Assembly (NCBI GenBank): GCA_022447555.1
Contig: JAKVBF010000004.1
Location: 77,314 to 141,313, forward strand
Source: Mariniblastus sp.
Lineage (GTDB): Bacteria > Planctomycetota > Planctomycetia > Pirellulales > Pirellulaceae
Length of the DNA: 64,000 bases
Direction of reading: 5' to 3'
This document shows, one piece after another, positions 58,952 through 63,485 of the stretch (its first letter is position 1; every line of letters starts with the position of its first letter). The translations under genes and the position numbers were made by a program. The notes under the pieces were generated by a model. The model was given only the letters and a program-made list of their open reading frames with translations. It ran no database searches and was not told where the DNA came from.

Positions 58952-59174
58952 GGAATCAAACCTGACCGGAAGGAGAGCAAAAGCAATCATTTTACACGTC
59001 TGTAATGTCTCACAAACGTTGAAAGCCGTCTTGTCGATTTCAGAGATTCACGCACCGGTTTTATTCAAAACCACTCGACTCGCCGAAACGGTTTTTTGCT
59101 GGAAACTGGCGGTCAACCAACCGACCTCAGGAAGCCGTAACTTGCCACGCCACACCTCGCGAAAGCATAGAGAC

Positions 59175-59960: not shown

Positions 59961-61592
59961 TCATTGGCCTTGTTGACGCAAAAGAATTTGGGCCTTTTTA
60001 AGATTGTCTTGAGCGACTTCATCCTCAGGATTTAACGCAACGGCCTTCTTGAATTGCTCAACCGCTTCGGGAAGACGTCTCTTCGCCCCCAGCATTTCAC
60101 CCAGTGCATTGTGGGCCTCAGCAAAACCCACCTGACATTCCGTCGCATTACGAAACGATTCCAGAGCTTTGTCTAACAGGTTCATTTCTCGACAGGCCAC
60201 GCCTAAATTGTAGTGAGCCTCGGCAAAATCAGGTTTCAATCGCAAGGCATCGAGGTATTGGACGAGTGCCAAATCGGGGCGCCCCGCTTGCTGCAGATCA
60301 TTCCCAAACCGATATGACAGACGGACCGCTTTCTTCGTAGCTATTTCATCCACTCGGGGATGGTCAAGGTTACTGCCGGGCAGCAGGGCGGCAGCGAGAA
60401 ACCTTTGCTTTCGATCTCCCTGTGAGTGGGGTAAATCGTCCACCACCTGCTCTACCGTTACCGGACCTTTGTAAATCACCGCCAATCGACCATACTCATC
60501 AATCAAAAAACTCGAAGGCAGTGGCAGCTGTCTGTGAATGGCAATCTGAAGATTATGAATCACCTGAAACGCTGCGGCGATTTGTGGCGTGGCCTTGCCA
60601 ACGGTAAACGGGTAACGATTCTCCTTAACCATCATCCTCGCCTTTTCTTTATTCTCTTTTTCATCGCTCAGCTCGTCGATCGATAACGCAACCACCTCCA
60701 CTCCGGCTGCCTGAAGCTCAGCATAACGTTCGGTGAGTTCTTCGAGTTCTGCTTGACAATGCGGGCAAGTACTGGACCAAAAAGTGACAAGGATTGGGCG
60801 ACCCTTTAGGTCCATCAGCTGTTGTTTTCGACCATCGAAACCGACAAACGCATTATCGGGAACACTCAGCAAATCAACCATCGGGATTCTCGCAATCTGC
60901 GTTGGCTTAGCTACCGCCTGGTCCTGAGACGTCAGACTAATCGTTCGGTTCCCGATACTCAAACGTTCGGCTACACCCTGTCCCTGAATCAATCGAAAAC
61001 GGCCATCCGCCTCAACACCAGTGAATGTCTCCTCTGCTCCCCCGGGCCAGCGCACGACAACAGATCGAACTTTTTGGCTGGGGCCCAATCCAAAATGAAG
61101 CCATTTACTGGACTGCGACAGAAACCCCTCACCGCCTCGTAATGTTCGAACACTCCGAACACGTGAGGCAGCCTCCAACGTGTCATCGCCTAATTCCAAC
61201 TCAACGCGAGCACCGATCCCATCCTTATTGGTTTTAGCACCATCCCCTTCCAGTCGGAGCATGACATAGTGATTTCCGGCATCGTTATCATTTCGCATCA
61301 ACCGCAAGCGGGGTGAACTTCGATTAGAAATCCACAAATCCAAGTCGCCATCATGATCCCAATCTACAAGCGCCACGGCACGACCATCATCAGGAAAATC
61401 TAACCCACTAATCGACGAAACATCGGCAAACCGCGCCTGCGCGAGAGGGTTAGCGCCCGTATTTAAAAAAACACAGTTTTTCTCTCGCCCACTAAACGAA
61501 CGACCCTCCCGCATCATACGAGACCATTCCGAATTCGCACTATTTAATTTGTCTGATACTTCTTCACCTTCTTTTGTTTGTCCATTCGACAC
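59961..61592 (-). CDS. 3' part of CRTAC1-type gene: FG-GAP blade, UnbV domain, thioredoxin domain, TPR
   Basis: Continuous in frame with the preceding part, separated from it by one TGA. From the GTG at 61592, the first 90 residues contain the seventh FG-GAP calcium motif D-W-D-H-D-G-D-L-D-L-W. The ASPIC/UnbV domain follows (about 100-215). A thioredoxin-like domain (about 250-375) has W-S-S-T-C-P-H-C, and TPR helices fill the C-terminus (about 410-543). Alone, the piece lacks a signal peptide though the UnbV/FG-GAP parts are normally exported. This favours it being the second part of one protein of 1174 residues. Restart from the GTG is possible because GGTGG lies upstream. Confidence 0.75.
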   Translation of the reverse strand: MSNGQTKEGEEVSDKLNSANSEWSRMMREGRSFSGREKNCVFLNTGANPLAQARFADVSSISGLDFPDDGRAVALVDWDHDGDLDLWISNRSSPRLRLMRNDNDAGNHYVMLRLEGDGAKTNKDGIGARVELELGDDTLEAASRVRSVRTLRGGEGFLSQSSKWLHFGLGPSQKVRSVVVRWPGGAEETFTGVEADGRFRLIQGQGVAERLSIGNRTISLTSQDQAVAKPTQIARIPMVDLLSVPDNAFVGFDGRKQQLMDLKGRPILVTFWSSTCPHCQAELEELTERYAELQAAGVEVVALSIDELSDEKENKEKARMMVKENRYPFTVGKATPQIAAAFQVIHNLQIAIHRQLPLPSSFLIDEYGRLAVIYKGPVTVEQVVDDLPHSQGDRKQRFLAAALLPGSNLDHPRVDEIATKKAVRLSYRFGNDLQQAGRPDLALVQYLDALRLKPDFAEAHYNLGVACREMNLLDKALESFRNATECQVGFAEAHNALGEMLGAKRRLPEAVEQFKKAVALNPEDEVAQDNLKKAQILLRQQGQ

Positions 61593-61616
61593 GACCTGCC
61601 GCCACCAAAAACTTCA
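61571..61616 (-). other. In-frame TGA and downstream hairpin, candidate Sec codon and SECIS-like element
   Basis: The TGA (61614-61616, codon 624) is the only stop between codons 1 and 1174 of the combined frame. In the RNA downstream, UUUUUG (positions +3 to +8) pairs with CAAAAG (+38 to +43), and an upper stem UGUC (+23 to +26) pairs with GACA (+32 to +35) around the loop GAAUG (+27 to +31). The 14-nt bulge is asymmetric, so the hairpin is a weak candidate. The loop begins with G at 27 nt from the TGA, within the distance known for bacterial SECIS elements. No Sec machinery gene is in the window. Confidence 0.55.
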
Positions 61617-63485
61617 CAAGTCTCCCGTATCATCGGTCGTCACAAAGCCATTGGACACCATCAGGTCTTCCCAGCCATCGTTATCTAGATCAAAGAACAT
61701 GGAGCCCCATGCCCAGCGTCCCATTTCAATCCCAGCGGCTCCGCTCACGTCTTCAAAGGAACCATCACCCATGTTCTTGAGCAGGGTATTACCGCGAGCC
61801 AAGCGAGCCATGCGATCGCGAACCTCTGCCGGTGCATCCGGTTTGAATTGCTCTTGAAAGGCAATTCGATTTCCCGCTGAAGAAAACATATTACTGATAA
61901 AAATATCCATCAGCCCGTCTCGGTTGAAATCCCCAAACGACGTTGACATCCCACTGGCTGCATTTTCGACTTCGGCAGACTCAGCCACATCTGAAAATTG
62001 GATTTCTCCATCTACCTGATCATTTCGGTATAAGTTATCCCGTCCAAAATCATTGGCAACGTATAAATCCAGATCGCCGTCATTGTCGTAATCTTCCCAA
62101 GCCGCCGCCCAACTGTACTTGCGATTATTTTCATCCAAGCCGATTTCAGTGGTAACATCTTTGAAATCCCAGTTTCCTTCTGAGATTTCGTTATGAAAAA
62201 GGCTGTTACTCCCCCCATCGTTGGCATCGTGAATGACAAAATCAGCTGAGTCACTTGGAAGCTCATTACCCAAACTGGAATTGCTGAAATTAGTGCAGAC
62301 ATAAAGATCCAATCGCCCGTCAAGATCATAATCTGCAGCGGACACAGAAGTGGTATCATCCGTTGTCGGCAAAATGGTTTTAACGACGAATCGGGCTCCG
62401 GTGTTCTCAGCCAAAAGCAATCCACCCATTATCGCAATCACCAGGTCTTGATCCCCGTCATTATCCAGATCCACTAACAGTGAACTCCGACTGGTTTGCA
62501 ACCAATCGACCCCCCATTCCACGGAGCCGTCCTGAAGCGTTCCGTTGGCTTGTTGTAAAAAAAGCCGGTTTGGCAAACCGGTTTCCTGGCAAACGTAAAG
62601 ATCGTCTAGTCCGTCGTTGTTAACGTCTCCCACGGTCACGCCGGAAACCCCAATAAATGCGGAATATCTTTGATCCTGGACTCGCTCAAACCAATGATCC
62701 AGTCCCAATAGAAATTGACGATCACGCGTTGAATTCTCGCCGAAGGTCGCCGCCGTAACATCCGTGAACAGACCGGTTGAGCGGGCTCCTTTCGTCTGTT
62801 CAATGGACATTGGCTGCAGCGCAACCAATCGAGGTTTACCGTCCGGCTGGATTGACCAGCGGGCAAGCCAATCCGAATGTTGCTCCGTTCGGTTAACAGA
62901 ATTGGACCCCACCAACGACACTAATTGACGGGTTTCCATCTCCCCACTCTCAAGAGATTTGACACGATAGATTTTGAATTCACTTTGAATACTCGACGGT
63001 GATTCACCCTCTTTCTGAAAAGGGACCACCAAACTTTTAAGTGCCGTAACCAAACCCTCGACACCCACCAATGGTAAATCTGATTTCGGGATGGCTGTCT
63101 CATTGGCTCGCCATCGCTGAACGACTAAGTCGGCGTTTTCAAAGACTACCGGGAATGGATCCGGGATGAGTCGATCGCTCCGGAACTCTTCCATCAGCAA
63201 CGGCGTAAGATGCTCACTATCGATCTCATCCGGGTGAGAAAATAATTTCCCAAGTTGTTTTAGTTGCGTTTTAGCCTCTCCCTGAAAGGCTTCCGTGTCC
63301 CAACCATCCACTTCTGGATTATCGGCATCCGACCAGGCAGCGCCCAACTGCGTGGGCAAGTTCACGACATTATCAAATGTCTTATTCGATTTCTCCGGAG
63401 TTGTCTCCGCAGGGACGCCCCATATAACTAAATAGGCAACCGTTGCCACCGCAAACAGACTGCCAATCGCAATCAACCATTTCAT
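61614..63485 (-). CDS. 5' part of CRTAC1-type gene: signal anchor and six FG-GAP/VCBS blades, ends at TGA
   Basis: A 623-codon frame from ATG 63485. An N-terminal hydrophobic segment (I-A-I-G-S-L-F-A-V-A-T-V-A-Y-L-V) is a signal or anchor. After a 220-residue helical region come six calcium-binding FG-GAP motifs with D-x-D/N-x-D-G-x-x-D-[LI]: D287, D339, D385, D465, D519 and D599. A seven-bladed propeller needs seven, and the seventh is just beyond the TGA. The frame ends at T-G-D-L then TGA at 61614-61616, with S-F-W-W-R-Q-V-V following in the same frame. It is read as one gene with a recoded codon, but this is unproven. The full span would be 59961-63485. Confidence 0.85.
   Translation of the reverse strand: MKWLIAIGSLFAVATVAYLVIWGVPAETTPEKSNKTFDNVVNLPTQLGAAWSDADNPEVDGWDTEAFQGEAKTQLKQLGKLFSHPDEIDSEHLTPLLMEEFRSDRLIPDPFPVVFENADLVVQRWRANETAIPKSDLPLVGVEGLVTALKSLVVPFQKEGESPSSIQSEFKIYRVKSLESGEMETRQLVSLVGSNSVNRTEQHSDWLARWSIQPDGKPRLVALQPMSIEQTKGARSTGLFTDVTAATFGENSTRDRQFLLGLDHWFERVQDQRYSAFIGVSGVTVGDVNNDGLDDLYVCQETGLPNRLFLQQANGTLQDGSVEWGVDWLQTSRSSLLVDLDNDGDQDLVIAIMGGLLLAENTGARFVVKTILPTTDDTTSVSAADYDLDGRLDLYVCTNFSNSSLGNELPSDSADFVIHDANDGGSNSLFHNEISEGNWDFKDVTTEIGLDENNRKYSWAAAWEDYDNDGDLDLYVANDFGRDNLYRNDQVDGEIQFSDVAESAEVENAASGMSTSFGDFNRDGLMDIFISNMFSSAGNRIAFQEQFKPDAPAEVRDRMARLARGNTLLKNMGDGSFEDVSGAAGIEMGRWAWGSMFFDLDNDGWEDLMVSNGFVTTDDTGDL

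Follow-up and report, generated by a model that had tools for sequence, protein, structure and literature searches.

To our knowledge, CRTAC1 is not known as a selenoprotein and its fold is not known as that of an enzyme. Here we describe a CRTAC1-like gene with an in-frame UGA, found on the minus strand of a 64,000-nucleotide stretch of DNA from the planctomycete Mariniblastus sp. (assembly GCA_022447555.1, contig JAKVBF010000004.1, positions 77,314 to 141,313; hereafter the window). Murine CRTAC1 (PDB 9etn), an FG-GAP propeller, is the best PDB match of the model of the read-through protein (Foldseek E 3.3e-24, TM score 0.74 by target length) and the best sequence match of the profile built around the UGA site (E 6.4e-5), but identity is 18% and the bacterial protein adds thioredoxin and tetratricopeptide repeat (TPR) domains. 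After 9etn, Foldseek returned TlpA and ResA (also StoA) for the thioredoxin domain, which resembles TlpA/ResA-type oxidoreductases in carrying a CPHC motif (Pfam AhpC-TSA, Foldseek) and would differ from them in its use, as a fused domain without selenocysteine (Sec) that we propose to serve a Sec of the propeller in cis. The ResA-like NCBIfam family NF041054 (WAxxUGC_long) matches the thioredoxin and TPR part weakly (36.6 bits, cut-off 300); its Sec motif would, to judge from the name, be WAxxUGC, unlike the CPHC found here. The catalogued prokaryotic selenoproteins, as presented in the accessible part of a May 2026 review (PMC13188914), share with our protein a UGA followed by a hairpin in the coding sequence, Cys homologues and, in most members, a Sec near a Cys, but differ in that Sec here would lie in a propeller and be followed by a Cys either within U-x-C or about 45-54 residues later. 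We give a probability of about 0.9 to the explanation as a whole, in which UGA codon 624 is decoded as Sec by means of a downstream hairpin in a protein of a new family with a redox role; that Sec is inserted at this codon we consider very probable.

The initial annotation of the window had described two open reading frames split by one TGA and named that TGA as a candidate Sec codon. The open frames at 61614-63485 (623 amino acids) and 59961-61592 (543 amino acids, GTG start) indeed share one frame, whose sole interruption between 63485 and 59961 is the TGA, followed by seven sense codons (SFWWRQV) and then the GTG at 61592, and read-through gives a product of 1174 amino acids. The domain order proposed at the outset was likewise recovered: by our own reading of the translation, six D-x-[DN]-x-D-G calcium motifs precede the TGA and a seventh follows it, and Pfam finds seven FG-GAP_3 stretches, then UnbV_ASPIC, AhpC-TSA and TPRs, so that, from Pfam matches above cut-off together with the fold match to 9etn, the CRTAC1-type order of FG-GAP repeats followed by UnbV_ASPIC is present. 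A lone TGA of this kind would look like decay or a sequencing error, and the draft genome comprises 62 contigs. We compared the gene with those of two Mariniblastus metagenome-assembled genomes, L039 and L040 (L denotes loci and G genomes), whose best segments are 71 and 72% identical and whose site codon is also TGA. Changes in L040 at codon positions 1/2/3 number 154/95/369 in the upstream half and 123/67/324 in the downstream half, and amino-acid identity upstream/downstream of the TGA is 0.699/0.761 for L040 and 0.693/0.736 for L039; third-position changes predominate in both halves of both genes, the part after the TGA being constrained like the part before it. Both halves are thus under purifying selection. 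In the window's genome the Sec-site profile has five matches, each with one TGA. Because the TGA is kept in 138/177 distinct homologues across genera and both halves are under selection, a nonsense mutation or sequencing error in a decaying gene, which the initial annotation had left open, has negligible probability.

Run over 315 loci, the profile found 177 distinct genes that have a letter at the Sec column, and these hold TGA in 138 cases, Cys in 11, Gly in 10, Ala in 5, Glu in 4, Ser, Arg, Asp and Gln in 2 each and Asn in 1, proportions that are not population frequencies because the loci were fetched as best matches to the TGA gene or were chosen, at TGA and non-TGA places alike. TGA or Cys thus occupies the column in 149/177 genes from many genera, as expected at the outset for a Sec codon, and the Cys forms retain the local motif (e.g. 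DYC-SVFWRHDIY). The 39 sense rows, among them the spurious second match L023 and the divergent L027, L028, L030, L031, L141 and L145, were all counted. Because the six-frame scan of the column split frames at TAA and TAG, those stops could not show there; tblastn, which reads through all stops, covered the site in 57 rows from the first 117 loci, 35 with TGA (some being one gene fetched twice) and the others sense or gapped, and none of the 57 had TAA or TAG at the site. Neither stop occurred within the Sec region of the stop-reading profile matches listed, and some longer genome matches contain a TAA or TAG, either in addition at another place or as the sole stop (e.g. G094, G035).

The machinery whose presence the initial annotation had made a test of its proposal was found complete in the window's genome, with SelA (569 bits), SelB (358 bits), SelD (273 bits) and tRNA-Sec (68.6 bits; counted from at least 60 bits, our own choice) all above cut-offs, and ARAGORN reports a tRNA-SeC with anticodon tca. 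SelD lies within a 733-residue frame (L330:484-2685, on G000:C3), the N-terminal half of which, by our own reading of the sequence, resembles an FAD/NAD(P)-binding dehydrogenase. Carriers of TGA were counted among the matches listed, and further carriers are possible. On this count, at least 54 of 199 family genomes carry TGA, and SelB or tRNA-Sec is present in 52/54 of these compared with 48/145 others (p = 3e-17). The profile matches 106 of 392 phylum genomes, with TGA or a sense codon (77/267 genera); 234 of the 392 have SelB, which is found in 64/69 TGA carriers among the matches listed versus 170/323 others (p = 4e-11). Reassignment of UGA throughout the genome was rejected because UGA is the terminal stop in 40 of 81 TGA genes (TAG in 21, TAA in 20). 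Read-through of another sort, by near-cognate suppression with Trp or Cys or as regulated production of short and long forms, would accord with the A that follows UGA in 124/138 genes and with an upstream piece that alone has six of the seven FG-GAP motifs; we nevertheless consider it very improbable, given the co-occurrence with SelB and tRNA-Sec, the sense rows, which contain no Trp and 11 Cys, the ordinary use of UGA to end the same genes, and a downstream hairpin that shows compensatory changes and conservation at synonymous sites.

Judged from sequence, the family would comprise a long class, with a partner Cys about 45-54 residues after Sec, and short classes that mostly have U-x-C. Class I (38 genes, including that of the window) is long, has the motif DL-U-SFFWRQVVSQ and a C-terminal C-x-x-C pattern in 37/38 genes, and carries, in most members, an ERN-C or ERN-x-C motif whose Cys lies at that distance. 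Class IIa (30 genes) has the motif DG-U-TCLWRAVVTQP and variants, with U-x-C in 30/30, and class IIb (15 genes) the motif U-SCLWRxVVR, with U-x-C in 13/15; complete members of both are about 780-1020 amino acids long, and the C-x-x-C pattern, looked for in them, was not found. A class-IIb TGA gene at G000:C34:237997-239328 (L004, L007, L008) lies on the contig of the window and adjoins additional FG-GAP propeller sequence. With the partner Cys defined as U-x-C, ERN-C or ERN-x-C, it is present in 131/138 U rows compared with 3/37 non-U rows, and a tree built without two of the 177 rows has at least six changes between U and non-U.

A selenocysteine insertion sequence (SECIS)-like hairpin begins about 12 nucleotides past the UGA, with its apical loop 17 nucleotides past it. 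The typical form is 5'-GCGRC-A-GGUCG-U-GUCGC in class I and GGCUGU-CGUGWC-ACAGCC in class IIa, and in class IIb some members show GCAC-GGUC-GUGC and others contain a mismatch. Among 89 sequences from U proteins that lack U-x-C (88 of them distinct, and almost all of class I), 96.0% of cells pair, versus at most 69.9% with slid partners; one pair is seen as AU, GU, GC, CG and UA and another as AU, GC and GU, and cells with double changes number 15 against a shuffled mean of 2.4. Pairing reaches 86.7% of cells in class IIb and 98.9% in class IIa, versus at most 61.3% and 67.8%, respectively, when slid. In synonymous conservation, codons +9, +6, +8, +7 and +10 are the top five of 164 scored columns in class IIa, +6, +7, +5 and +8 the top four of 141 in class IIb, and among 153 class-I columns +9 ranks first and +8 third, with +5, +7 and +10 moderate and +6 low. 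A stop at the TGA with re-initiation at the GTG at 61592, entertained at the outset, would yield two proteins, and the GTG, the eighth codon past the TGA, together with an open frame for each half, is compatible with that. The GTG, however, sits inside the hairpin and is itself conserved (GTG in 30/38 class-I and 30/30 class-IIa genes), the seventh FG-GAP motif lies beyond the TGA, and the Cys homologues L132 and L137 run as one frame across the site; we therefore regard re-initiation as extremely improbable.

We also applied, in our own implementation, the published limits for a bacterial SECIS (bSECIS), namely a loop of 3-9 nucleotides with G in the first two, a spacing of 16-37 nucleotides and an energy of at most -7.5 kcal/mol (section 5 in the accessible part of PMC13188914). 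All limits hold for 66/83 TGA genes, 4/26 sense genes and 398/1162 in-gene control positions; because 34% of controls pass, this test says little by itself, and we rely on synonymous conservation and pair counts. Our hairpin model R1, of which the window sequence is a part, matches the window at 61575-61616 (46.2 bits, E 1.9e-9), and its top three matches in the genome are class-I TGA genes, all in its training set; a fourth (G000:C23, E 0.014) was rejected as a likely chance match, the frames there showing no propeller. An Rfam scan of 59-64 kb of the window found no SECIS family, its two matches at E <= 1 both falling below the gathering score. One sub-threshold match, to the Histone3 stem-loop at 59052-59097 on the plus strand (24.3 bits, cut-off 34), is probably a terminator-like hairpin.

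Several observations weigh against Sec insertion through this hairpin, or against its coupling to a partner Cys. Residues other than TGA or Cys (Gly, Ala, Glu, Ser, Arg, Asp, Gln, Asn) occupy the column in 28/177 rows, so that the ordinary residues in homologues, which the initial proposal had named as speaking against Sec, are present in part; these rows include a Gly subfamily, divergent sequences whose alignment is uncertain, and paralogues, and almost all of them lack the partner Cys. SelB is not above cut-off in the genomes that contribute seven of the ten Gly rows but is above it in those of the other three (G032, G049, G168), and sense paralogues with the full motif (e.g. DLQSFFWRRV, G337) also occur in SelB-bearing genomes. 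The TGA-bearing genomes G102 (91% complete) and G169 (69%) show neither SelB nor tRNA-Sec. The covariation rests on two class-I pairs; double changes are absent from the class IIa and IIb hairpins, where shifting the partners by +2 (both) or +3 (IIa) raises the covariation score. Class I also shows strong conservation at codons -1 and +1, and its codons +5, +6, +7 and +10 all rank below -44 and +47. Seventeen of the 83 TGA genes fail the bSECIS model and some pass by way of a non-conserved hairpin, with the control positions passing as stated; the window hairpin itself has the loop and spacing of the model and falls short in energy (-6.5 versus -7.5 kcal/mol), as do those of two Mariniblastus relatives. 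The partner Cys of either kind is missing in 7/138 U rows and also in all four TGA proteins from other phyla, and an independent-contrast test of Sec with partner Cys, with three supported pairs, was not significant; since only these three independent pairs are supported, we treat the coupling as suggestive.

As to mechanism, we propose that UGA 624 would be decoded by the standard bacterial SelA/SelB/SelD/tRNA-Sec machinery under the direction of the short coding-sequence hairpin, and that the product would be a membrane-anchored or exported protein with a seven-repeat FG-GAP propeller, predicted to bind calcium, followed by UnbV, a TlpA-like thioredoxin domain and TPRs. The thioredoxin fold with its CxxC is present in the C-terminal domain (Pfam, class-I alignment, Foldseek). 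The AlphaFold2 model (from 35 sequences; mean predicted local distance difference test score (pLDDT) 88.6, predicted template modelling score 0.89) places Cys671 at the opening of strand 671-675, and in the class-I alignment Cys397 is kept in 20/27 rows, compared with 26/27 for Cys299 and Cys671 and 27/27 for Cys907 and Cys910. Sec at a helix start could supply the reactive selenolate in an oxidoreductase that works outside the cytoplasm, depends on thiols or peroxides and may have a thiol, a disulfide or a peroxide as substrate; this Sec would form a selenenylsulfide with the partner Cys and, in the long class, might be re-reduced by the protein's own fused CPHC thioredoxin domain. We lean slightly towards such a redox role. 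A Sec that is inserted for a structural or metal-binding purpose is a less likely but real alternative: the CRTAC1 fold is not known as that of an enzyme, sense paralogues have Gly, Ala, Glu or Gln at the site, and neither kind of partner Cys is present in the four TGA proteins from other phyla. What speaks against a non-catalytic site is the contrast in partner Cys between Sec and sense rows, the fused CxxC in all 27 class-I rows and the position of Sec at the start of a helix in the model. Motif-bearing paralogues with Glu, Asp, Ala, Gln, Arg or Asn at the Sec column (L269-L272, L275, L277-L280, L282, L284, L286, L287) are perhaps non-catalytic copies. The features of the window gene are collected in Table 1.

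Table 1. Features of the read-through gene in window coordinates; residue numbers count the UGA codon as 624.
Feature	Coordinates	Strand	Basis or remark
Read-through coding sequence, 1174 codons	59964..63485	-	terminal stop TGA at 59961-59963
N-terminal hydrophobic helix, residues 2-22, probable signal anchor or signal peptide	63420..63482	-	sequence; model helix 2-22, low confidence there
Cys299, kept in long class	62589..62591	-	26/27 class-I rows
Helix 623-634, Sec624 second residue	61584..61619	-	AlphaFold2 model; ten-residue blocks over 611-640 pLDDT 76, 86, 79
UGA codon 624, inferred selenocysteine	61614..61616	-	column TGA in 138/177 distinct homologues, Cys in 11
SECIS-like hairpin core, five pairs, loop GGUCG at 61592-61596	61587..61601	-	pairing, compensatory changes, synonymous conservation
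Cys671, probable Sec624 partner (ERN-C motif)	61473..61475	-	26/27 class-I rows
UnbV_ASPIC, residues 756-829	60999..61220	-	Pfam PF07593, 65.8 bits
TlpA/ResA-like thioredoxin domain (AhpC-TSA), residues 879-1002	60480..60851	-	Pfam PF00578, 63.4 bits; Foldseek TlpA/ResA chains
CPHC motif, Cys907 and Cys910	60756..60767	-	both Cys in 27/27 class-I rows
TPR repeats, residues 1061-1155	60021..60305	-	Pfam TPR families

Next, we asked whether a family of this kind has been described. Table 1 of PMC13188914, within the part of the review accessible to us, lists 119 prokaryotic selenoprotein families or subfamilies with no FG-GAP, CRTAC1 or UnbV entry by name, and the accessible text makes no mention of planctomycetes, propeller, VCBS, CRTAC, integrin or FG-GAP. 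The deep-Sep study reports nine new families, none FG-GAP- or CRTAC1-like by name in its accessible part (PMC12013277). A paper on a planctomycete from Porphyra gives its planctomycete candidates in a supplement, according to its accessible part (PMC4807772). We found no report of a selenoprotein in connection with CRTAC1, UnbV/ASPIC/FG-GAP, Pirellula or planctomycetes in a literature search whose scope left aside most subscription journals, unpublished NCBI annotation and that supplement, which could hold the family, and NCBIfam scans of five proteins (for two of them the best 25 of 29 and the best 25 of 33 matches) gave no such family. For UnbV in connection with planctomycetes one paper came up, and its subject is Poribacteria genomes. 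Since none of these sources shows it, we rate the family as new, in agreement with the initial suggestion of an undescribed one: it is apparently an undescribed selenoprotein family on a new scaffold, set apart by the names and domains of the listed families. Most characterized selenoproteins have a thioredoxin-like fold (section 7 in the accessible part of PMC13188914), and a large propeller family, if confirmed, would broaden the folds that use Sec, with an inferred Sec-Cys pair in two geometries and a SECIS (GTC GTG) at which the needs of the RNA may restrict the encoded protein sequence. Standard gene calling cuts such genes in two at the TGA. The accessible part of PMC12013277 notes that filtering may remove selenoproteins that have no Cys homologues, and methods that want Cys homologues among the best matches may therefore miss genes of this type.

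The family is widespread in Planctomycetota and occurs also in Latescibacterota-type genomes. Starting from other loci we reached 12 genomes, of which four, recorded as Latescibacterota, Latescibacteria or Gemmatimonadota, have the TGA form (L319, L324, L325, L326), with the motif PEDT-U-SLFWRTVVR and the hairpin GCGCAC-GGUC-GUGCG, and three of these four non-Planctomycetota genomes also have Cys forms (L316-L318). Deeper scoring within the phylum gave 26 matches in G004 (24 with one TGA), 29 in G063 (24; 82% complete, 7% contamination) and 17 in G070 (15), counts taken from the stops in each match and checked codon by codon for some copies only. Twenty-four TGA-bearing copies in one genome would rank beside the largest bacterial selenoproteome that we found reported, of at least 46 genes over all families (accessible part of PMC12013277). 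Whether these genes form a phylum-wide Sec superfamily on a calcium-binding beta-propeller, a new selenoenzyme scaffold with Sec and Cys at two or ~50 residues, a thioredoxin reductant in the long class and an expansion to at least 24 copies that would make it the main use of Sec in some Planctomycetota, we judge to be an even bet. In G004, G063 and G070, several TGA-bearing matches lie within a few kb of each other.

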